A stretch of 34,727 nt of DNA, taken from Clostridia bacterium (lineage in GTDB: Bacteria > Bacillota > Clostridia > Oscillospirales > CAG-272). The stretch spans positions 1 to 34,727 of the forward strand of contig JAFWPR010000167.1 in the NCBI GenBank assembly GCA_017545225.1. The letters run 5' to 3'. This document shows positions 7,648 to 32,440 of this stretch, piece by piece. The position numbers were made by a program, and so were the translations under genes. The number at the start of each line of letters is the position of its first letter. Position 1 is the stretch's first letter. Below the pieces are notes generated by a model, which ran no database searches, was not told the DNA's origin, and saw nothing but the letters and a program-made list of their open reading frames with translations.

Positions 7648-8808
7648 TTATTTGCGGACTTTGCGTCTTACGATGAACGCGCCTGCCGCGGATACCGCCG
7701 CGACCGCCGCCATGATCGCCATGGGGTCGCCGGTCCTCGGCGCGGTTCCGCCGCCCTGGGTTCCGCCGCCCTGGCCGCCGCTTTCGCCGCCGCCCTGGGT
7801 TCCGCCGCTGTTACCGCCGCTTTCGCCGCCGCCCTGGGCTCCGCCGCCCTGGCCGCCGCTTTCGCCGCCGCCCTGGGTTCCGCCGCCCTGGGTTCCGCCG
7901 CCCTGGCCGCCGTTTCCGCCGCCTTCACCGCCGTTGCCGGTCTTCTCGATCATCGTGTCGGAGAGCAGATACGGGACGTGGTTGTGCATCATCTTCACGT
8001 TGACTCCGTAACCGAAGTCGCCGAGCGTGACGGCGTAGCTGTCCTCATCATCGTGAGCGGCTCCGGGGGTCTCCGCCGTCCCGGCGGTCGCGGTGAGCGT
8101 CGCTTTGATCGTGCTTCCCGGTCCGATAGCATCGGCGTGGATATCCTCGAAGGGGACGGACCATTCGACCGTGGAGTACCCGGTCGCGTAGTCGTAATTG
8201 ATGACGCAGTCGACGCCGGGCGTCGGGTTATAGGTGTTCTTCGCTCCGAGCTGGGTCGGGCCGTTCGGATTGACGTAGTAGCCCTCGAGATAATCGCCCG
8301 TGTCCGTTCTCTTGCCGAGCGCGTAGTACAGGATCGGATGCTCCTCGTACTCGGTGTCGAAGTTGATGATGTAAGCGAGACCGCGGCAGAAGTCGTCCTC
8401 GGGAGATTCGCCTTCCTTGACGCCGAGGACCTGCTTGATCTCGACCGGTTTGTTGCGGATCGCAAAGTTGAAGCCGTGGGTCTCGTCCCAGGAGAAGTAG
8501 TACTCCATCGTCGGGAACATGGCGAGGCAGTTGTCGAGACTGTTGGCGCCGAAAGCGACGACGAACAGCGGGCTCGTCATATTATCCTCGGCGTCGAGGT
8601 CGGGATAATATCTCTCATACTCTCCGTCGCCGATGACGCCGTCTTTGACGACGTCTGCGGGATCGGCCTTTTTGACCGTGATCACTTCGTTCGGATCCCA
8701 GCCCGTTCCGTTCGGAGCGAACGAGGCCCTCGCCCCTGCGGGGATCGCGGCCGCGATCATCATCGCAAGCGTCGCGATTGTGAGAAGAATGGAAAGAAGC
8801 TTCTTCAT
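7648..8808 (-). CDS. Secreted CBM9-like surface protein with Gly-rich stalk and C-terminal anchor (386 aa)
   Basis: The N-terminus is a signal peptide (MKKLLSILLTIATLAMMIAAA, cleavage near residue 27). Residues ~35-285 have features of the carbohydrate-binding family 9/DOMON-like fold: KDGVIGDGEYERY near the start, then alternating beta-strand patterns and YSTVEWSVPFEDI. Residues ~290-357 are almost entirely Gly, Gln, Ser, Glu and Thr, a flexible stalk. The end is APRTGD, a hydrophobic segment, then RRKVRK, a sortase-like or membrane-retention tail that lacks the canonical LPxTG. A ligand cannot be named. The gene converges on the phage lysis cassette and shares its terminator. Confidence 0.7.
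   Translation of the reverse strand: MKKLLSILLTIATLAMMIAAAIPAGARASFAPNGTGWDPNEVITVKKADPADVVKDGVIGDGEYERYYPDLDAEDNMTSPLFVVAFGANSLDNCLAMFPTMEYYFSWDETHGFNFAIRNKPVEIKQVLGVKEGESPEDDFCRGLAYIINFDTEYEEHPILYYALGKRTDTGDYLEGYYVNPNGPTQLGAKNTYNPTPGVDCVINYDYATGYSTVEWSVPFEDIHADAIGPGSTIKATLTATAGTAETPGAAHDDEDSYAVTLGDFGYGVNVKMMHNHVPYLLSDTMIEKTGNGGEGGGNGGQGGGTQGGGTQGGGESGGQGGGAQGGGESGGNSGGTQGGGESGGQGGGTQGGGTAPRTGDPMAIMAAVAAVSAAGAFIVRRKVRK
7742..7935 (-). repeat. Degenerate Gly-codon tandem repeats in the stalk region
   Basis: The plus strand reads as repeats of GCCGCCCTGG, GTTCCGCC and GCTTTCGCC units, coding for GGGTQ, GGESGGQ and related blocks. The units are imperfect and in frame, consistent with expansion and contraction by slippage or recombination that varies stalk length. 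Confidence 0.85.
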
Positions 8809-22146: not shown

Positions 22147-25100
22147 TTATGCCGTCAATGCGTTAGCATTGATCTTTTCGATCGCTTTTCTTATTCCCGC
22201 CCAGACGGACAGATCCGTAAAGATTTCCACGACGCTGCCCTGATCCGTAAACGGGGATTCCTGAAGCACGGACAAGTCTTTCATAATACCGTTGCGGACG
22301 ATATACTCGACGATCTGGTTGACGAAATATATCTGTCTGCTGTCGAGATTCACGTCGTTCAGATATTCGGCGAACGCCTCCTTCGCGGCGCTCATATCGA
22401 GACCGACGATCTCGCGGACCAGTTCTCCGAGCGGCTTCTGTCCGTATTCCGCTTCGTAGTCCTGCTTAGTCCCTACTTCGCTCCAGAGGATCTCTTCAAG
22501 CGCTTTGACGTCGTCGTGCGTGAGCGGCTGATTCGACTTGAGCTTCGCGATCGCGGCGTTGTCCTGATGCTGTCTGATATAGAACTCCGCTTTCGCCTTG
22601 TAGTTCTTCAGGTCGTCGTTTTCAAGTTCGGGCTCGTTCCAGTCCATCGAGAGGATATCGTCGTCGAAGTTCGTATCGTACCGGATCTTGCCGACGGGTA
22701 TATATTTCATCAGATCGCGCAGATTAACGCGGATATATTCGAACTCTTTGATCCCCGCGGTGTCCAGATAATCGGTGTGCAGGATCGTTTCGATCAGCTC
22801 CGACTGCGCCATTATCTCAGGTATATTGGCGACGTCCGCGACCGCGTTGACTTTTCTCAGCAGATCGCTGCGGTAGCGGGAGTATCTTTTGCCCGTGAGG
22901 TAAGCGAGTTCTATCCCGTACATCAGGGCGTCGAAGCGGACCGCTTTCGCGTCGTCATCGTCGGGGATGATTAGCGGAGCGAGTTCCTGCCCGATCAGGA
23001 GCGTGTCTTCATACGTCAGGGTCCGATAGTTGTCGGGGTTTGCATACAGTTTAACGTATTTCAGATGCTGTCTTACCGCAAAGTTCTCTTTATTCAGTTC
23101 TCTGACCTTGCGGACCATATCGTCGACGAGCGATTTGCGGAATTCGACGAGGTCTTCCGTCTGGTAAAGCAGATTTTGAAGTTTGAAAGCGATCTGCCCT
23201 TTGCGATGGAAGACGGCGCCCTGCAGGGCGATCATGTTCGCGGTCGGCTTTCCCTTGTTCATACGGAAAAACTCAAAGTTCCCGCAGAAATCGAAGATAT
23301 AGAATCTCTCCTTGTCCTTGCCGTCGATCAGGTTCGCGCACAGGCGCGTTCCTCGCCCGATCATCTGCCAGAATTTCGCCTTGCTCATGACCTTTTTGAA
23401 GAAGACGAGATTCAGCACCTCCGGCACGTCTATACCGGTATCGAGCATATCCACGGAAATGGCGATCTGCGGAAGTTTCTTCGGGTCTGAAAACTCGTCG
23501 ATCGCGCTTTGAGCGAACTTCATAAAGTTGTCGATGACTTTCGCGAAGCCGGGAAGGTGAGGGTACTCTTTGTTGAAGACCTCGAAGATCTTTTCGGCGT
23601 GATTGTGGTTTTTCGCGAAGATGATCGTCTTGCCGAGCTTCTCGCCGTAGTCGATCTTCAAACCGTTTTCCATCACGACGTGAAGCACTTCGCGGATCGT
23701 GTCTTCGTTGAAGATCCACTCGTTCAGAGCGGACGACGCGATGCTCTCGGGCAGCTCTCCGTTTTCGTCCTCGAACGTGTCCTCGTATGCCGCTCTGTCC
23801 TCGTCGGACAGCTCGTCGTAAACGATCCCCTGCTCGATGAACTTGAGCCGCGTTTCGACCGACGTGAAATCGACCAGAAACCCGTCCTTTACGGCCTGCG
23901 CCAGTTCGTACCCGTACGTCGGCACGCCGCTTTCGAGCTCAAAGACTTCGTAAGTATTCTTGTCGATCTCGTCTTTCGGCGTCGCGGTGAGTCCGACGAG
24001 CGGCGCGTCGAAGTAGTTGAATATGTCGCGGTATTTATTGTAGATCGAACGGTGCGCCTCGTCGCAGATCACGAGATCGAAGTGGCCGGTGGTAAATACT
24101 TTTCCTTTATCGTCCTTCGCTTCGTCGATCGTGTTCATCATCGACTGATAAGTCGAGAAAACGCAGCGGGCGTTAAAGTCCGGTTTGGCGTCGCAAAGAC
24201 TCGTGACGGATAGATCGGGAAGCAGGTTGACGAAGTTCCTTTTCGCCTGATTGACGAGCGAGACACGGTCGGCGAGGAAGAGGATATTCGTCACCCAGCC
24301 GTGCTGTAACAGAACGTCGCAGAGGGCGATCACCGTTCTCGTCTTGCCCGAACCGGTCGCCATGACGAGCAGCGCCTTCCTGCGGTTCTTTTCGTCGAGC
24401 GCGTCGCAGACCGCTTTGATCGCGCCCTCCTGATAGTACCGTCCGGCGATCTTTTTGTTGACCGTTACGTGCGCGAGGCTTGTCCGCATCGTCTGCAAGT
24501 TGAACAGTTTTTCAAGGTCTCGCTTTGAGTAGACGGACGCGACTTTCCGCTCGGGATAAAGGTTGTCCTGAATACGCGTATCAAATCCGTTTGAGAGGAA
24601 GATGACGGGGCGGCGTCCGTACTTTTTCTCAAGGATATCGGCGTACAGCTTCGCCTGCTGACGGCCTTTTGCCACGTCAACGCAGGTGCGCTTTGCTTCA
24701 AGCACGGCGAGCGCTCTGCCGTCGTCGCCGTACAGAACGTAATCGGCGTACCCGACGCCCGAGTCGGTCGGCATCCCGAACAGTTCGACCTCGTTCAGCC
24801 AGTCCTTGCCAAGGGTCCATCCGGCGTCCTGAAGCATGAAGTCGATATAGATCTTGCGCGTTTTGTATTCGGACAGATCGAGCGGCTTCGGAACGTACGT
24901 CTGCTGCTGTTCCGCTCGGCGGGACGTCAGTTCCGCTTTCATCGTCCTGTTCTCTTCGATCAGCGCGGCAAGATCGATATCCGCGTCGGGAACGAACGAG
25001 AGGGCTTCCTCAGGCGTCAGTTCGAGAAGCGAGCGGTCAAACTCGTGTTCCTCGTACCCGTCCGCGTAGAAATACGCGACCTCATCGAGGAAGTAAAAGA

Positions 25101-25440
25101 GGTTTTCAAGGCACAGCTCGGCCTGCTCTACGGTGACTTTTTTGCCGCCGTGCATGACCGTGTTTCCGAGCTTTCGGATATAGTCCATACGCCGCCAGAC
25201 GTCGGTCCCGACGATATCCTTGAACTTCTCGTCGTTCATCAGGGAAACGAGCGTGTCCTGATAAGGCGTGACAAGATCGCGGTCAACGGAATACATCCAT
25301 TTCACCGCGAATTCCATCGCCCGCCGGCAGCTCGAAACGCACGAGTCGACGTCGATATGCAGCAAGTTTTCGGCTTTGATCGCCACGTCGGCGAACCCGT
25401 CGAACCTGCCGTCCGATTTCAGGAAATCAAAGTTGGTCAT
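22147..25440 (-). CDS. hsdR: Type I restriction enzyme R subunit (HsdR, 1097 aa)
   Basis: Residues ~10-130 resemble DUF4145 (helical, HEPN-like, ending at [19 protein letters not shown]). A restriction-type nuclease core follows, with E248-A-K250 (AVLEAKRT). The SF2 motor has Walker A ATGSGKT (Lys366), DEAH at 460-463, SAT-like TATP, and the later [10 protein letters not shown] motif. The C-terminal third fits the EcoEI-type R C-terminal domain that binds the methylase. The full length is present with no frame break. It works with HsdM and HsdS to translocate and cleave unmodified DNA. It lies 47 bp after a 59-aa gene, and is separated from hsdS by about 2.3 kb of cargo. Confidence 0.95.
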
Positions 25441-25486
25441 AGGTACACCTCGAATATCTGTATGGAGTTATTTATTCCACTACACT

Positions 25487-25666
25487 TTATCCTTGTTTCT
25501 GCCCAAGTAGCCATGACAAGGCCCCGGCATCTACCACCGGTTTCATTTCTGCCAGAAATCTTGTTTTATTGCTTAAAGACATCTTATTGAAATCGTCTCT
25601 GAGTTCCTTAACTTCTTTTGAGAACTTTAACAAATAATCGTTATACTCTTGCTCTGCATCTGTCAT
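25487..25666 (-). CDS. Small protein upstream of hsdR (59 aa)
   Basis: The ATG at 25666 follows a perfect AAGGAGGTGAG SD; the GTG at 25675 lies inside the SD and is not the start. The protein is soluble, mostly charged helix (SKEVKELRDDFNKMSLSNKTRFLAEM) with a short hydrophobic end (ALSWLLG). No family is recognised. It sits between abiH and hsdR, with its own probable promoter and phased repeats just upstream. A control protein, an HsdR partner or an antitoxin is conceivable, but nothing in the sequence decides this. Confidence 0.6.
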   Translation of the reverse strand: MTDAEQEYNDYLLKFSKEVKELRDDFNKMSLSNKTRFLAEMKPVVDAGALSWLLGQKQG

Positions 25667-25689
25667 TGCACTCACCTCCTTCGTATAGT

Positions 25690-25786: not shown

Positions 25787-27022
25787 TCACATAATAGATG
25801 ATTCAGATATTTTTTCAATACTATAGAATGTCAGTCTTTGCTTACGAATCAAGTCATCAAATTCTTTTTTGCCAAAGATACGAATCAAGTTGCGAATGTA
25901 TTTTTCTTCCTCCTCCGGACGATGGTAATAAATATATATTGAACCGGCAAGTGAAAACACTTCTCTTATTATATCCTCATCCGTGATATCTAACGAATGA
26001 CCTAAAACATATACGTCATCCGCCAGCCCGCGCTTTTTGTCCGCTTCCATTAGTTCGATAGTATTCCGGAATGAATCAAAAGTGTCGCTAATCAACCTTT
26101 GATAATACTTTTTGAATAGAATATACTGCGCCGCCGAACCCTTCTCGTCATCGCTATCAGGATTGATTCCCAGTATAACACCATCACCGATCTTTCCATG
26201 AAGATGAACAACTGAGTCTGCCTTATATTGATTCTCGTATGTTTTTGTATAGTTAAAAGAAATAACTGTCTGAAACGAATTAAAGAAACTGTTAGATTTT
26301 TCCAGTGGACCTTCGGAAAGCCTTTTCTCTATAACGTTCTCGACGAAATGGTAAAGATAAAACTCGAGTATCTGTGCAAACTGTTTTAACAACTCAAATA
26401 AAGATTCCACAACCTTATTCTTGTCAATTCTTTTGACGTTTTCAAAACGGTCTTTTATTGTATACTTTTCCTTTACGACTTTTCGATTACTGATTCCACC
26501 CCAACAGGAGATATTATCAATAATCTCTTCTTCAAAGAAATCAAAATAATCCAGAACCACCTTCTCAGTGACCCTGCTTACATTATGCTTAAAAGATAAT
26601 CTTCCATTATACTGTTTCCAACGATCATCATCAATCAAAAACGAGTCAAACACCCCGATTACAAAGCGGATATTCTTCTCGACGTCAATCCAGTTACTGT
26701 CATTTTTACACTCTTCGACCATAAATCTCCACCAAGGATTATTCTCGCACATTTTAATCAACGAGGATTGCTCTTTTTCCTCCAAAATCATAGAATCGTA
26801 TTCTTTTTTGTACCTTATGTAGCTTTCCTGAAGCATCGGGCAGTTATTTTCGACCTCTGCCATAATACGCCCTAATGGTTTGTCCTCGATTGTGATTTGT
26901 TTTCGTGTGCTTTTTGAAGTATCACCGCGAACTAAATATTCTGTTATAGTTAAAAAACAGTAATATGTTGTTGGCAAATAATGATATAAATCAAACCCAT
27001 TGCCAAGGAGAAGAACTTTCAT
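25787..27022 (-). CDS. AbiH-family abortive infection protein (411 aa)
   Basis: The family hallmark is at the very N-terminus: LLLGNGFDLYHYLPT (residues 4-18), a nucleotide-binding-like loop. Later conserved blocks are SFNYTKTYE, VVHLHGKIGDG, and YVLGHSLDITDEDI. These match AbiH (originally a lactococcal phage-exclusion gene), whose molecular mechanism is not established. The length is close to other members. SD GAGGTGAAAA precedes ATG. The gene begins 9 bp after the stop of an hsdS remnant and is much more AT-rich than hsdR, consistent with arrival by transfer. It probably acts as an accessory anti-phage gene in the restriction island. Confidence 0.8.
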   Translation of the reverse strand: MKVLLLGNGFDLYHYLPTTYYCFLTITEYLVRGDTSKSTRKQITIEDKPLGRIMAEVENNCPMLQESYIRYKKEYDSMILEEKEQSSLIKMCENNPWWRFMVEECKNDSNWIDVEKNIRFVIGVFDSFLIDDDRWKQYNGRLSFKHNVSRVTEKVVLDYFDFFEEEIIDNISCWGGISNRKVVKEKYTIKDRFENVKRIDKNKVVESLFELLKQFAQILEFYLYHFVENVIEKRLSEGPLEKSNSFFNSFQTVISFNYTKTYENQYKADSVVHLHGKIGDGVILGINPDSDDEKGSAAQYILFKKYYQRLISDTFDSFRNTIELMEADKKRGLADDVYVLGHSLDITDEDIIREVFSLAGSIYIYYHRPEEEEKYIRNLIRIFGKKEFDDLIRKQRLTFYSIEKISESSIM

Positions 27023-27031
27023 TTTTTCACC

Positions 27032-27130
27032 TCATCCAAAAATTTTTTGCATCAAACTGTCAAATAACAGTTGCGCTTTTTCAAGTGATTTTTGAACTGC
27101 AATTTTTGATTTATCGATTTGTTCAATAAA
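27032..27130 (-). pseudogene. Remnant of a second hsdS 3' end
   Basis: The 32 residues before the TGA at 27032-27034 (starting FIEQIDKSKIAVQK and ending LMQKIFG) match the last 32 residues of the intact HsdS at 23 positions. The DNA is about 80% identical to 27775-27873 by eye. The homology continues through the stop into the following GGTGAA SD. The divergence suggests it comes from a different hsdS allele, not a fresh duplicate. Confidence 0.85.
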
Positions 27131-27135
27131 AACTC

Positions 27136-27167
27136 GCCGTCCGATTTCAGAAATCAAAGTTGGTCAT
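27136..27167 (-). pseudogene. Remnant of an hsdR 5' end
   Basis: Thirty-two bases starting ATGACCAACTTTGATTTC match the first 33 bases of hsdR (25408-25440) except for one missing C. A GAGG-type SD precedes both ATGs. The single deletion brings a stop after six codons, and the 3' end of the 203-aa gene reads through the first bases. Confidence 0.85.
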
Positions 27168-27765
27168 GGGTGACCTCCTCGTCGGTTTCTTTAACCAACC
27201 ATTCTTTGACCATCGCAATATGGTTTTTTTCATAGCATTCCGGCCAGTTTTTAAGGCATGACTCAATAGCTCGAATTATTTCATCCTTTCCTGTAACTGC
27301 ACATATTGCATCTTCGTGTGAATCAAACTGCTTTTTCAGAAATATCAGATTCAATTTGTTGAGCTCGGCATTCCTTTTTATATGTTTTTCAGTTTTTCTT
27401 TTTGTTAAATAGATTACATTCATTTCAGCTTTTCTGAACTTTTCAAAATCCGTATCCAATTTCACAAATATACGTTCCGCTCGTTTACCTTGTATCGCGT
27501 CTTGTCCATCAGCAAAAAGTGACAATGTGAAAATCAGATCGGAGGTCGTAGATATGTAATCATTATAGGCTTTCTTGAATTCAACTTTGTATTGTGCTAT
27601 TGTGCTAATAATAACGACGATAAAGCTACAAGCAGATCCGATAAATAATTCCTGAATAAAATGCGAGTGTGGAAACTCAATAAATTCAAAGATTACCGAA
27701 AACAAAACACACACTGTAAGACATACGATGCAAGTTTTAACTATTTTAATTAGCGGTTTCAACAT
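27154..27765 (-). CDS. Two-TM membrane protein of unknown function in the island (203 aa)
   Basis: Two hydrophobic segments lie at about residues 8-28 and 38-60. The rest is a cytoplasmic, Lys/Glu-rich helical domain (residues ~65-200) with a mid-section FEKFRKAEMNVIYLTKRKTEKHIKR. No catalytic motif or family is recognised. It starts 9 bp after hsdS with SD GGTGAAGAT. The last residues (THDQL) are encoded by the start of the hsdR remnant, so the original C-terminus may have been changed. A membrane-acting defence effector is one possibility. It is AT-rich like hsdS and abiH. Confidence 0.6.
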   Translation of the reverse strand: MLKPLIKIVKTCIVCLTVCVLFSVIFEFIEFPHSHFIQELFIGSACSFIVVIISTIAQYKVEFKKAYNDYISTTSDLIFTLSLFADGQDAIQGKRAERIFVKLDTDFEKFRKAEMNVIYLTKRKTEKHIKRNAELNKLNLIFLKKQFDSHEDAICAVTGKDEIIRAIESCLKNWPECYEKNHIAMVKEWLVKETDEEVTHDQL

Positions 27766-27774
27766 ATCTTCACC

Positions 27775-28920
27775 TTACCCGAAATATTTCTGCATTAAAC
27801 CATCAAATAACAGTTGCGCTTTATCAAGGGCTTTTTGAACGACAATCTTTGATTTGTCGACTTGTTGGACGAAGGTTGCAAACTCATCTTGCAAGCTTTT
27901 AGGCGGTCTATACATTTTGATCTGAGCCATTGCGCTAAGCACCAAATCTCTATTTGCTATTCCCTTAGTCAACTTTTGTGATTGGTCATAGCAATAATCA
28001 CAGTTAAGCATATTTTCAAAAAACAACCCGTTCAATTTCTCTTTGTCAAATTTAAGAACTGCCAAATGGACCCAATTCGCAAACTCGATATCTACATCTA
28101 TCAGTTTTGCAATACCTGTCGTTCCACCCTTGCTATAAAGCATATCTCCCTTTTCTGGACAACACTTCTTCCGTGCTTCTTTATAGTCTTCGTCAGAAAT
28201 ATACCTTGCAGTTGTAAAATCAATTACATGATTCACAATATTTCTCACAGATATAAATGGATGCCCCCCGTTTTCCTTTCCGATATCTGGAAGCGATTTA
28301 TGTGGGCCGTCCTTAATATAACAGCACTCTTTTCCAACAGTCGTTTCATCCCAATGTATCGGATTAGTAGCGGGATCCCCAAACATCTCGACAAATCGGG
28401 CTTTGATGAGATTATCAAGTAACTGTATTTGAGATGTTCTTAATGAGATGATTCTTTTTGCTTGATCAAGTATCCAAACTATTTCTTTTTGTTTACTTAA
28501 ATCAGGAAGATAGATTGGAAACTCGCATAACATTTCGAACTTGAGGTTATCTCGAACACTTCCTCTTGCAACGGTTCGAATTCGTTGGAGAGCATAATCG
28601 CTTTTCAGATAGTAATACAAATATTGTTGATTTAACTGAGGAGACACAGCGAAGACATTATATAAAGGGCTAACAATAACACGATTTTCATTTCTTTGCC
28701 AGTCAATTGATCCCACGTTAATTCTCGAAGGGTTGTAAGCAAAGTATCCCCTTGGTACGATCTTATAGGTTGATTTGTCTTTGCTCGCAACTTCTTTTCC
28801 AAAATAATCCTGACAAAAACCCTGCGTATTTGTAACGCTGAAAACAGGGATGTTTTCATTGCCCTTGTTTCTAACAGAGTATTCTTGGATATAATCACCC
28901 AACCTGACTTTTGCACTCAT
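27775..28920 (-). CDS. hsdS: Type I restriction specificity subunit (HsdS, 381 aa)
   Basis: Two target-recognition domains are visible (about residues 1-140 and 185-330). Each is followed by a conserved helical spacer: IISLRTSQIQLLDNLIKARFVEMFGDP in the middle, and FVQQVDKSKIVVQKALDKAQ to the end. HsdS chooses the bipartite DNA target for HsdM and HsdR. The full length is present. It starts 5 bp after the 270-aa gene. It is distinctly AT-rich compared with hsdM and hsdR, a usual sign of frequent exchange of specificity genes. The actual recognition sequence cannot be derived. Confidence 0.93.
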   Translation of the reverse strand: MSAKVRLGDYIQEYSVRNKGNENIPVFSVTNTQGFCQDYFGKEVASKDKSTYKIVPRGYFAYNPSRINVGSIDWQRNENRVIVSPLYNVFAVSPQLNQQYLYYYLKSDYALQRIRTVARGSVRDNLKFEMLCEFPIYLPDLSKQKEIVWILDQAKRIISLRTSQIQLLDNLIKARFVEMFGDPATNPIHWDETTVGKECCYIKDGPHKSLPDIGKENGGHPFISVRNIVNHVIDFTTARYISDEDYKEARKKCCPEKGDMLYSKGGTTGIAKLIDVDIEFANWVHLAVLKFDKEKLNGLFFENMLNCDYCYDQSQKLTKGIANRDLVLSAMAQIKMYRPPKSLQDEFATFVQQVDKSKIVVQKALDKAQLLFDGLMQKYFG

Positions 28921-28925
28921 TTCAA

Positions 28926-29738
28926 CTAATTCCTATCAGATGCATTTTTTAATGAAATCATAAAACGAATAATATTTCCGGTTTGGTACATTATGAACTC
29001 AAGACATTCTTTTTTTGTTTTATCTGCATGTTTTGCGTTGTTATTTATGAAGTTTGTATACATTTGAAGTATTGTTTCAAAAGTATTCGATAATTCTTTG
29101 GGTATACCGTGTTCCTTCATAAACTGACCATAATCACTTTTCAGGTTTTCCAAAGTCTTTTTGCTTTTGAAAAAACTCTGGAAAAAGGTTTCAAGCGCTT
29201 TTCTAAACAAATCCGCTACATTACTGTAATTGCTACTTCTTGAGTATTCCAAAAGGGCATGTGTCATTGCATGCCTTGCGGACGGATAGTTTTGTAGCCA
29301 TTCAAAGGGAATACTGACAATTGCTTCATCTAATTCTTTTGCTCCTTTAGGAAAAACAAAGAAGCCATCATTATCGCGTATTATTTCATACTGTAAATCC
29401 AAATCATCAAGTGCTTGTTTTATGTATGATTCAATGTAAAATCCACCTTCAACATGATTGAAAAGGTAAAAACAGTTTGCTAAGACAATTGCTTTACTGA
29501 GCATTGCACAAGTTTCAGTTTCTCTTTCGATGCTTTTTTTTACCTCGTTCCAAGCATAATAACGCAAAGGCTTTTCATAAACGTCAATAAAATATTTTCT
29601 GCAGATTGATTCTTCATCATCTGGATTACTAGATGAAATTATATCAAGCAATACTGACAACCTATTAGATAAGCATTTTGCTTTTTCTACATCTTCAAAA
29701 CCTATCCCCAGTTTTTTTCTATAGTCAATCCAATTCAT
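28926..29738 (-). CDS. HEPN/Abi-C-like accessory protein (270 aa)
   Basis: The protein is largely helical with no membrane segment. The C-terminal part (NNNAKHADKTKKECLEFIMYQTGNIIRFMI) resembles the abortive-infection C-terminal/HEPN-like domain in layout: a polar Asn/His stretch before a long hydrophobic helix. The classical R-x4-6-H of active HEPN ribonucleases is not clearly present, so catalytic activity is doubtful. The N-terminal ~150 residues are not recognised. It lies between the HipA-like kinase and hsdS, 5 bp before hsdS, and is AT-rich. I infer a defence-linked role, with low certainty. Confidence 0.55.
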   Translation of the reverse strand: MNWIDYRKKLGIGFEDVEKAKCLSNRLSVLLDIISSSNPDDEESICRKYFIDVYEKPLRYYAWNEVKKSIERETETCAMLSKAIVLANCFYLFNHVEGGFYIESYIKQALDDLDLQYEIIRDNDGFFVFPKGAKELDEAIVSIPFEWLQNYPSARHAMTHALLEYSRSSNYSNVADLFRKALETFFQSFFKSKKTLENLKSDYGQFMKEHGIPKELSNTFETILQMYTNFINNNAKHADKTKKECLEFIMYQTGNIIRFMISLKNASDRN

Positions 29739-29819
29739 ATAGATGCCTTCTTTCTATGTGTATAGGAGGAATAATAGTTACTCTTGTCTCAACTTTTCCT
29801 CAACTCATCCATTCCCCTC

Positions 29820-30944
29820 TTAAATACTCATCAGATAATTGAGCCGTTGGGAAAACATATTATACTGCTCGTTACTTGCAAACCAAGCTCTTGATACTTC
29901 GGAAACCTGATTCAGCCCGACGGTTTTTACCGCTTCTGCTGCGGCGTCTTTCTGGCTCGGATGACCCGTCACGGGCTGGCAAATTCCGCCTTCCAGCGTG
30001 GAATAATCGGTGAACGCTTTATTGAAGTCCATCAAAGGATAAAGACCGAGCAACTCGTTGTTGTCATTATTTACGTAGAAGCCCCAATTCCCCCAGTGCC
30101 TGTCGGAGTTTCCGATCAGGTAGTCTATAATGATCATCATACAGAAGGCGTATTTGTCTTTTTTGAAAACGAATTCTTCCGTATCAATATTGTGATTGAC
30201 GCAATAAACGTCTATGAACTCCATTGAGACGATACTTTTGTCTTCGCTTGTGATCAGTTTGCTTTTACTGACTTTCTTCTGGTCGAAAGTATCCTCGGTG
30301 TACCTGACGTGATCGATCTTGAAACAATCAGCGATTTTTGACGCAAGAAGTTCCGCCTCGACGTCGCGTTCTTCACCGTCTTTCATAAGGTAAAACGCGC
30401 CGTCCTTTCTTATCCACGCCTTTGGAGCGACGCCGTTGGTTGCAACGTCGCCCGCAGCGTCGCGATTTGCAAGCAATTCGGCGTTTTGTGCGGTTATCTG
30501 TTTTCCGAGGAGAGATACGTCCGCAAACGAATTCGACAGCGAATGCCTGTATAAGCTGACGTCTTCGAAACTTATCTTCTCTCTGTCTCCCTTGATCCAA
30601 TAAACGTCGGTAAGACAAAGCGCGTGATATGAAATGGATATCATAGCTCTTTCGCGGTCTGTGGTCGCCTGTTTTGCTCCTATGGAGTTCAGGATCTCTT
30701 TCGCGTAACGTCGGTCGAGAGTCAAAACACGCGAGGCGCACCAGTAATAGAAATTATTGAGATTATTCACGCGTGTTTCGACGTCTTTCTCCTGATCGAG
30801 CCAAAGATTATACGGCATAAACGATTTTGCGTAGATCGTTACGGTCCCATCTTCTCTTACGGATGCAACGCGTCTGTTTTTGTGCATGATCGTATAACGC
30901 GCCCACCCTTTTACAAAAGCGTTTTTTTCAATTTTGATACTCAT
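29820..30944 (-). CDS. HipA/CtkA-like protein kinase in the restriction operon (374 aa)
   Basis: The C-terminal half has kinase-like motifs of the HipA/CtkA group: YLIGNSDRHWGNWGF with catalytic Asp281, and LMDFNKAF with the metal-binding Asp306. The N-terminal half has an ATP-site-like section around GVAPKAWIRKDGAFYLMKDG. Family members phosphorylate Ser/Thr on proteins; in HipA this inhibits translation. No HipB-like antitoxin is adjacent, which is unlike classical hipBA. The ATG overlaps the hsdM stop by 4 bp, so it is translated with the methylase. This linkage suggests a kinase that monitors or modulates the restriction system. Confidence 0.75.
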   Translation of the reverse strand: MSIKIEKNAFVKGWARYTIMHKNRRVASVREDGTVTIYAKSFMPYNLWLDQEKDVETRVNNLNNFYYWCASRVLTLDRRYAKEILNSIGAKQATTDRERAMISISYHALCLTDVYWIKGDREKISFEDVSLYRHSLSNSFADVSLLGKQITAQNAELLANRDAAGDVATNGVAPKAWIRKDGAFYLMKDGEERDVEAELLASKIADCFKIDHVRYTEDTFDQKKVSKSKLITSEDKSIVSMEFIDVYCVNHNIDTEEFVFKKDKYAFCMMIIIDYLIGNSDRHWGNWGFYVNNDNNELLGLYPLMDFNKAFTDYSTLEGGICQPVTGHPSQKDAAAEAVKTVGLNQVSEVSRAWFASNEQYNMFSQRLNYLMSI

Positions 30945-32440
30945 TTCAACATATCCTCCAGATTCTTCATTTCTTCGGCGATCTGTTTTTCAAGTTCCCG
31001 CAGTTCCGCCATGATCTCGCTCGTCGGCGGGTATTCGACGGGCTTATACTCCGTCTGTTTATACTTGTTGATGCTCAGATCGTAATCGTTACCGACGATC
31101 TCGTCCTTCGGGACGAAGAAGGATTTTTCGGTGCGCTTGCGGTCGGCTTCACCGCCGAGATTACGGAACCGCGCGACGATATCGGGGATATCGTTCTCCG
31201 CGACGGGGGAGCGCTTGTCGTCGAGCGAGAAGCCGTCCGCCTTCATATCGTAGAACCACACCTTGTCCGTTCCGCCGTGCCCGGTCTTCGTGAAGATCAG
31301 GATCCCGGTAGAAACTCCGGCGTACGGTTTGAACACGCCGGAGGGCATCGAGATCACCGCCTCGAGACGGTTTTCCTCGATCAGCGCCTTTCTGATCGCC
31401 TTATGCGCCGTCGACGAGCCGAACAGAACGCCGTCGGGAACGATGCACGCGCACCGTCCGCCGACGCGGAGCATCCGCAGAAACAGCGCGATGAAAAGAA
31501 GTTCGGTCTTTTTTGTCTTGCAGACCTTCAGCAGATCTGTCGAGACTATATCCGCGTCGAGACTTCCTTTGAACGGCGGGTTCGCAAGGATCAGGGAATA
31601 CTTGTCCCGGTCGGGGTTCTGGTCGGACAGACTGTCGCGGTATTCGATGAACGGGTTGTCGATCCCGTGCGTCATCATGTTCATGGCTCCGATACGGAGC
31701 ATAGTTCTGTCCATATCGTAACCGAAGAACATGTGATTCATAAAGTGGTCTTTCTTTTCCTTGCTGTAAAAGATCTCTTCTTTCCGTGTCTCTTTGAGAT
31801 ATTCGCCCGCGGCGACAAGAAAGCCGGACGTACCGCACGCGGGATCACAAATGATATCATTCGCTTTCGGATCCATCAGCTCTACCATCATTCTGATGAC
31901 GTGGCGAGGGGTACGGAACTGTCCGTTGACGCCCGCCGTCGCTATCTTGGCGAGCAGATATTCGTAAACGTCTCCGCGCACGTCGGCGGATTGCGTTTCA
32001 TTCATGAGTTTATAGATCTCGTCGAGCGAGTCCACCACTTTGGAAAGCATAAGCGGGGTGGGAAGCTTGAAGATCGCGTCGTCCATATATTTGGAATACG
32101 CGCTGTTTTTGTCGCCGTGGAGATTCTTGATAAAAGGGAACACCCATTCCTGCATAACGGAATACATCCGCCCCGCGGGGAAATCGTGGAACACGCTCCA
32201 TTTGAGCTGAGTTCCGTCGATCCTGCGCTCGCCGATCTCGACCTCGTCCGCAAATATGCTCCTGAAAGGCAGTCCGAGCATCGCGCTCTCTTTGGCGCGA
32301 AGGTTGTCGCTGTCGTCGAGATCGCGGATGAACATAAGATACGTGATCTGTTCTATCACGTCGAGAGGGTTTGTCAGCCCTCCGGTCCAGAAGATCTCCC
32401 ACAAGCCGTCTATTTTATTTTTCAGTTCACCTGTGATCAT
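30941..32440 (-). CDS. hsdM: Type I DNA methyltransferase subunit (HsdM, 499 aa)
   Basis: The N-terminal helical HsdM domain (LKNKIDGLWEIFWTGGLTNPLDVIEQITYLMFIRDLD) is followed by the N6-adenine methylase core. This has motif I DPACGTSGF (Asp199) for SAM binding and motif IV NPPF (Asn287). The C-terminal coiled segment (EIMAELRELEKQIAEEMKNLE) is typical for contacting HsdS. It methylates adenine in the host copies of the target site, protecting them from HsdR. It starts 5 bp after the upstream Fic gene stop and overlaps the kinase gene. The length is normal. Confidence 0.95.
   Translation of the reverse strand: MITGELKNKIDGLWEIFWTGGLTNPLDVIEQITYLMFIRDLDDSDNLRAKESAMLGLPFRSIFADEVEIGERRIDGTQLKWSVFHDFPAGRMYSVMQEWVFPFIKNLHGDKNSAYSKYMDDAIFKLPTPLMLSKVVDSLDEIYKLMNETQSADVRGDVYEYLLAKIATAGVNGQFRTPRHVIRMMVELMDPKANDIICDPACGTSGFLVAAGEYLKETRKEEIFYSKEKKDHFMNHMFFGYDMDRTMLRIGAMNMMTHGIDNPFIEYRDSLSDQNPDRDKYSLILANPPFKGSLDADIVSTDLLKVCKTKKTELLFIALFLRMLRVGGRCACIVPDGVLFGSSTAHKAIRKALIEENRLEAVISMPSGVFKPYAGVSTGILIFTKTGHGGTDKVWFYDMKADGFSLDDKRSPVAENDIPDIVARFRNLGGEADRKRTEKSFFVPKDEIVGNDYDLSINKYKQTEYKPVEYPPTSEIMAELRELEKQIAEEMKNLEDMLK

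Follow-up and report, generated by a model that had tools for sequence, protein, structure and literature searches.

Defence genes gather inside restriction operons, as has been published, and the slot between hsdS and hsdR is itself already part of the literature. In EPEC, DarTG2 lies between hsdS and hsdR, at a site regarded as a potential recombination hotspot (PMC12255303), and prrC is located within the type I locus EcoprrI (PMC12707154). Both share with the operon analysed here the presence of defence genes inside a type I operon, but the parts of these two accounts that were available describe no hsdR-start or hsdS-end stubs between stacked modules. In Campylobacter jejuni, the hsdR-hsdS gap contains the variable rlo ORFs, and variable mlo ORFs lie between hsdS and hsdM (Miller et al. 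2005, cited in PMC5183652); variable ORFs are a feature shared with our operon, while a joint or module structure is not described in the available part of that source. Group B type I loci of Bibersteinia trehalosi underwent allelic replacement, with an inferred block exchange of hsdS and flanking ORFs (PMC4996451), whereas the scars reported here indicate the addition of a second module.

How several defence genes enter one operon we did not find described. No hsdR-start/hsdS-end scars between stacked cargo genes were found among the titles and abstract openings of the open literature, a scope that leaves most subscription journals outside, and both the grammar of stacking and the employment of stubs in exchange seem to add new detail to a locus type that is already known. 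Integron gene cassettes are modules with standard ends that are stacked in one operon. Their outcome resembles the stacking proposed here, but here ordinary recombination is proposed, and the locus lacks the one shared recombination site of an integron-like array: joint positions, like stub lengths, vary by locus, which argues against a single site-specific recombination site.

We analysed positions 1–34,727 of contig JAFWPR010000167.1 (34,727 nt, hereafter the window), which belongs to a draft genome in 178 contigs. In the hsdS-hsdR gap of its type I operon, a composite scar made of an hsdR-start copy (R') and an hsdS-end copy (S') separates two cargo genes. We consider it likely, with a probability of roughly three in four, that two cargo modules were stacked in the gap and meet at this scar.

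Materials and methods

The first set consisted of the best 80 of 308 related stretches, 68 of which had both hsdS and an hsdR start. An order search added 34 of 44 places, from which four duplicates and two places without hsdS were dropped, and a class search added 25 of 31 places, from which one duplicate and two places without hsdS were dropped; duplicates were detected only through an exact 120-nt probe. With the window included, this gave 97 + 22 loci, 88 + 16 of them with gaps of at least 100 nt, and 98 gaps after six loci with second hsdS copies (L063, L109, L118, L119, L139 and L100) had been left out of the count. Anchors were taken from all loci and covered the start, middle and end of hsdS and hsdR, and the start and end only of hsdM. 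A match was counted as a stub if it began at the hsdR start or reached the hsdS end; one match in L144 and one minus-strand match in L126 were dropped, as they fell short of the hsdS end or hsdR start. A cargo gene was called alone in the gap where no other ORF of at least 80 aa lies between hsdS and hsdR.

Description of the operon and its scar

On the minus strand fic and hsdM come first. Two genes, one weakly matching HipA_C and then one of 270 aa, separate hsdM from hsdS, and hsdS is followed in turn by the 203-aa gene, abiH, a 62-codon ORF and hsdR. The co-oriented hsdM, hsdS and hsdR genes carry the domains of their families and identify a type I restriction-modification operon. The features are as follows.

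30941..32440, minus strand: hsdM, methyltransferase subunit (Pfam N6_Mtase/HsdM_N; PADLOC MTase_I)
27775..28920, minus strand: hsdS, specificity subunit (Pfam Methylase_S; PADLOC Specificity_I)
27045..28416, minus strand: tract near-identical to L004 (six mismatches; 99% identical)
27154..27765, minus strand: 203-aa cargo gene of the proposed first module (ORF; family alone in the gap of L013 and, distantly, L030)
27177-27136, minus strand: R' stub, copy of the hsdR start and of sequence upstream of the start (local alignment, repeat search)
27030..27123, minus strand: S' stub, diverged hsdS 3' end through the stop codon (local alignment, repeat search)
25787..27022, minus strand: AbiH-family cargo gene of the proposed second module (Pfam PF14253)
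25487..25675, minus strand: 62-codon ORF between abiH and hsdR (GTG start; 59 codons from the first ATG)
22147..25440, minus strand: hsdR, type I restriction subunit (Pfam ResIII/HSDR_N/EcoEI_R_C; PADLOC REase_I)

The second cargo gene matches the AbiH family with 109.1 bits against a curated Pfam cut-off of 30.9, and phage defence is its predicted role. The 203-aa protein has no match in Pfam, PADLOC or PHROGs; read from its sequence, the N-terminal part contains long hydrophobic stretches. The small ORF beside hsdR has a weak PHROG match of unknown function and no match in Pfam or PADLOC; it had been described as a 59-aa gene, and the ORF is indeed present but comprises 62 codons when read from its GTG. 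It is possibly a further small module. The hsdM-hsdS gap (28926-30944) is a second variable slot. Its first gene reaches only 21.0 bits with HipA_C, under the Pfam cut-off of 30.5, and its relatives follow hsdM in L058, L063, L065 and L109, with none seen in L004; the 270-aa gene is PADLOC PDC-S32.

The composite scar between the 203-aa gene and abiH is real. The initial annotation, made from the sequence alone, had proposed that the 203-aa gene ends in a copy of the hsdR start lacking one C and that a diverged copy of the hsdS 3' end precedes abiH; both copies, and the gene order hsdS / 203 aa / [hsdR start] / [hsdS end] / abiH / small ORF / hsdR, were confirmed, and the suggested comparison of the scar with the hsdR start and the hsdS end gave similarities that hold in local alignment and repeat search alike. 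The R' stub aligns over 42 nt with two one-base gaps, one of which is the missing C, at a score of 64 compared with a maximum of 27 among 2000 mononucleotide shuffles, and the repeat search recovers it in two pieces (27131-27171 against 25403-25444). Because one base is missing, its hsdR frame breaks off after six codons. The S' alignment (27123-27020, 104 nt) extends past the hsdS stop through the spacer and the abiH start codon and scores 113 against a shuffle maximum of 35; in the repeat search, 27020-27123 matches 27763-27866 and is 82% identical to the resident hsdS end. Between the two copies, approximately 12 nt are not confidently assignable, and no microhomology was seen. The location originally given for the scar, 27032-27167, was right and its limits were slightly too narrow, as the alignable parts reach 27177 and 27020. 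Loss of either cargo gene through these leftover repeats, which had also been suggested, is possible, but the longest identical runs of 20 and 18 nt lend it little weight.

Loci for hsdS phase variation contain a second full or partial hsdS with a target-recognition domain. The window differs from these in having one full hsdS and, on the same strand, a tail of approximately 100 nt that corresponds to HsdS residues 349-381.

Stubs and cargo genes in related loci

Stubs of the hsdR start, the hsdS end or both were detected in 26 of the 98 gaps, the window included, while five dinucleotide shuffles of the same gaps gave 0, 2, 0, 0 and 0 gaps with stubs. Counting the common scar of the window and L004 once, and likewise the near-identical L040 and L041, reduces the 26 loci to about 24 cases. 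Stubs were strongly associated with the number of cargo genes: they were present in 25 of the 51 gaps with at least two ORFs (80 aa), whereas only 1 of the other 47 gaps had any (Fisher, 3e-8). In that gap, of L042, an ORF of 60 aa lies ahead of the stub. The association persists in gaps of at least 1200 nt (25/44 multi-ORF gaps versus 1/14 others; Fisher, 0.0014), so gap length alone is not a sufficient explanation. The class sample by itself did not replicate it (2/9 versus 0/6; Fisher, 0.49), and 26 of the 51 multi-ORF gaps have no detectable stub. Wherever two stubs abut, the hsdR start comes first and the hsdS end second, namely in the window and L004, L029 (twice), L042, L053, L073, L113 and L122; weaker cases in L032 and L040/L041 have the same order.

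Anchors from the start and middle of hsdS also matched 16-17 gaps (38 bits, plus strand). These matches were discounted as an artefact rather than other stub types, because six of the hsdS anchors were partial and hsdS has likeness within itself; with the partial anchors removed and each match given its best anchor, the stubs were assigned to the hsdS end. The idea that stubs are a feature of any operon gap was not supported either, as no hsdM-end matches of at least 38 bits were found in the 46 of 89 hsdM-hsdS gaps that are longer than 100 nt. The hsdS matches in hsdM-hsdS gaps are second or partial hsdS copies in L018, L023 and L109, and pieces of 22-29 nt just ahead of the called hsdS start in L021, L063, L066, L092 and L093, which are probably miscalled starts.

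Single-cargo relatives, which the initial annotation had proposed to look for, exist for both cargo genes of the window. In L013 a member of the 203-aa family, 44% identical to that of the window, is alone in the gap, starting 10 nt after hsdS and ending 28 nt before hsdR, and a distant member (22%) is alone in L030, while an AbiH protein (33% identity) is alone in the hsdS-hsdR gap of L005. More generally, ten cargo families (0, 1, 2, 6, 7, 10, 15, 16, 23 and 26) are alone in one locus and adjoin a stub (R' or S') elsewhere. The best example pairs the single-cargo locus L121 with the first module of L122, which are 82% identical over 1260 nt; the match spans the hsdS tail, the cargo gene and the R' stub, and stops approximately 10 nt into S'.

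The hsdS-hsdR gap holds unrelated cargo genes in related loci, and the earlier idea that it is a slot for accessory genes is borne out by the diversity of its content: in the first sample (88 gaps), the 171 gap ORFs of at least 80 aa form 33 multi-member families plus 67 singletons. Among 20 cargo proteins of scarred loci that were compared with Pfam, 8 had no match; the others included AbiH, Abi_alpha, HEPN_AbiU2, CAP12 TIR, HNH and FRG as well as DUF559, DUF4062, DUF2806, DUF2971 and DUF6173. This content fits a slot for defence genes. Compared by eye, the distances from cargo stop to R' span the same range as those from cargo stop to intact hsdR, and the 14-nt overlap seen in the window occurs in 4 of 15 cases at R' and 7 of 74 at intact hsdR.

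Origin of the joints

A two-module reading of the window is supported because both cargo families occur alone and stubs recur in multi-cargo gaps. A module would consist of an hsdS tail, a cargo gene and an hsdR head, the cargo starting next to the hsdS tail and stopping next to the hsdR head. Illegitimate recombination would fuse an hsdR head and an hsdS tail of separate origin, sometimes at a microhomology of 9-10 nt, and a second module would be added at that joint rather than swapped. The resulting operon would combine several abortive-infection-like genes with a restriction system. Among the sampled loci, no intermediate between two known parents of the same species was found.

The joints themselves are diverse. 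Of those that can be read cleanly, each of the two scars of L029 fuses an hsdR start to an hsdS end at a 10-nt run common to both. The L053 joint has 2 nt of microhomology, and that of L122 has an overlap of 0 nt relative to its own hsdR and 9 nt only relative to the hsdR of L121. Nucleotides without assignment number 6 in L073, 12 in the window, 25 in L113, 26 in L042, 32 in L032 and 69 in L040. Homeology between the hsdS tail and the hsdR head was rejected as the cause of the breakpoints, since the hsdS tail scores alike with other parts of hsdR (7.78 for the first of 15 hsdR tiles, 7.21-8.10 for the others; 63 loci), and nothing was found that explains why joints cluster at these two places.

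It is conceivable, although we regard it as somewhat unlikely, that the stubs are kept because the adjoining cargo genes use them as signals for starting and stopping translation, and that their origin is incidental. The stop codon of the 203-aa gene, at 27154, does lie within R', and the S'-abiH junction looks, by eye, like the intact hsdS-abiH junction of L005. A signalling role would nevertheless leave the arrival of the second module unexplained, and it sits poorly with the loss of the R' start codon in L042 and L083 and with the broken R' frame in the window.

The initial annotation had explained the scar by the merger of two operon versions whose inner genes were then deleted down to stubs. 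The existence of single-cargo relatives and the recurrence of stubs support the merging of two versions, but do not show the sequence of a whole-operon merger followed by inner deletion. Complete operons in tandem, trimmed later by large deletions that took out hsdR, hsdM and the greater part of hsdS on the inner side, would yield the same final order, and the stub lengths vary by locus (20 to ~263 nt into hsdR for R', 32-117 nt back from the hsdS end for S'), as independent deletions would make them. All 18 R' stubs, however, end within the first ~263 nt of an hsdR of ~3.3 kb, and even the young-looking L134, with a repeat of ~94% identity, already has an R' of only 263 nt. Moreover, comparison with whole genes of the same locus (68 loci) or gene tiles (elsewhere) revealed no long piece of hsdM or of the interior or 3' part of hsdR. 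The exceptions were dispersed repeats (L007, L058, L113), a minus-strand hsdM match of 32 nt in L072, matches not exceeding 44 bits and additional hsdS copies. The lack of a long remnant favours joints that were short from the outset over a trimmed whole inner operon; we hold complete operons in tandem with later deletion to be rather improbable, and a short joint formed in one step to be at least as likely as merger plus inner deletion.

Less probable again is a Campbell-type event, in which a circle or concatemer containing an hsdS tail, a cargo gene and an hsdR head integrates by single crossover and duplicates its flanks. L134, where a direct repeat of 336-338 nt surrounds an insert of ~1.1 kb, would fit such an event: with its flanking repeat ~94% identical (counted from the alignment), it looks like a young insertion of the kind that a single crossover would leave. 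Two scars of the same design, as in L029, would likewise be expected of repeated insertion. The L134 layout (R'-insert-S') is nevertheless unlike that of the window (cargo-R'-S'-cargo).

If the scars are joints between stacked modules, each seems to preserve the trace of one addition event, and addition versus replacement becomes a testable question. They also suggest the limits of modules, and could let cargo boundaries be called from sequence alone and flag candidates for defence genes, the 203-aa family among them.

Sister genome and possible exchange of modules

The same scar is present in L004 (contig JAFRQK010000010.1), a draft genome of the same genus from goat omasum, at 8509-8657, with R' at 8509-8550. 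The 203-aa gene, the hsdR-start stub and the hsdS-end stub are nearly base for base alike in the two genomes, and the scar is followed in L004 by a 416-aa gene without AbiH match, as opposed to abiH in the window. The near-identical tract begins in mid-hsdS (28416) and ends inside S' (27045), where the cargo beyond differs between the genomes; its aligned flanks are 83-90% identical. The simplest reading of this pattern is a DNA exchange whose two crossovers fell in hsdS and in the S' stub. On that reading the stub served as a homology arm; S' may thus act as an arm for cargo exchange, a suggestion that rests on two draft assemblies whose tract ends both sit in hsdS-like repeats, where drafts of mixed samples can be falsely joined.

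An assembly chimera or chance similarity is nonetheless a very improbable source of the scar: the window genome is fragmented (178 contigs), most of the relatives are assemblies from metagenomes and the hsdS-like repeats at both L004 tract ends are typical places for false joins, but the stub scores far exceed those of the shuffles, L004 has the same scar in another draft genome with aligned flanks differing by 10-17%, and the pattern recurs at other loci.

Because the 99% tract common to the window and L004 suggests it, we propose for the stacked modules that the stubs would be short homology arms through which incoming DNA could exchange the module on one side. Tentatively, and with the odds somewhat against so general a claim, the hsdS-hsdR gap could be a cassette stacker that works without a recombinase, in which units are added by microhomology and their joints become landing pads for homologous module swaps between strains. 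If true, the stacker would reach an integron-like outcome without an integrase.

Other layouts

In L029 (5869-9394), three stacked cargo ORFs have the two scars between them. The direct repeat of L134 (7538-9291) consists of hsdS tail and hsdR head, and the insert that it flanks contains ORFs of 141 aa and 163 aa.

In the six loci that were left out of the count, the hsdS-hsdR gap contains an additional hsdS copy, complete or partial, and in L100 this copy is inverted. These loci are possibly phase-variable, and a 321-335-aa gene (family 8) recurs in four of them. Dispersed repeats of ~100 nt are located in the gaps of L007 (8945-9960), L058 (6312-7413) and L113 (7737-8074, reverse complement), and the hsdR and hsdM matches of these three loci were not counted as stubs on that account. 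The repeats recur inside hsdM (L007, L058) or hsdR (L058) of the same locus and, judging from these copies, seem to have entered the restriction genes themselves.
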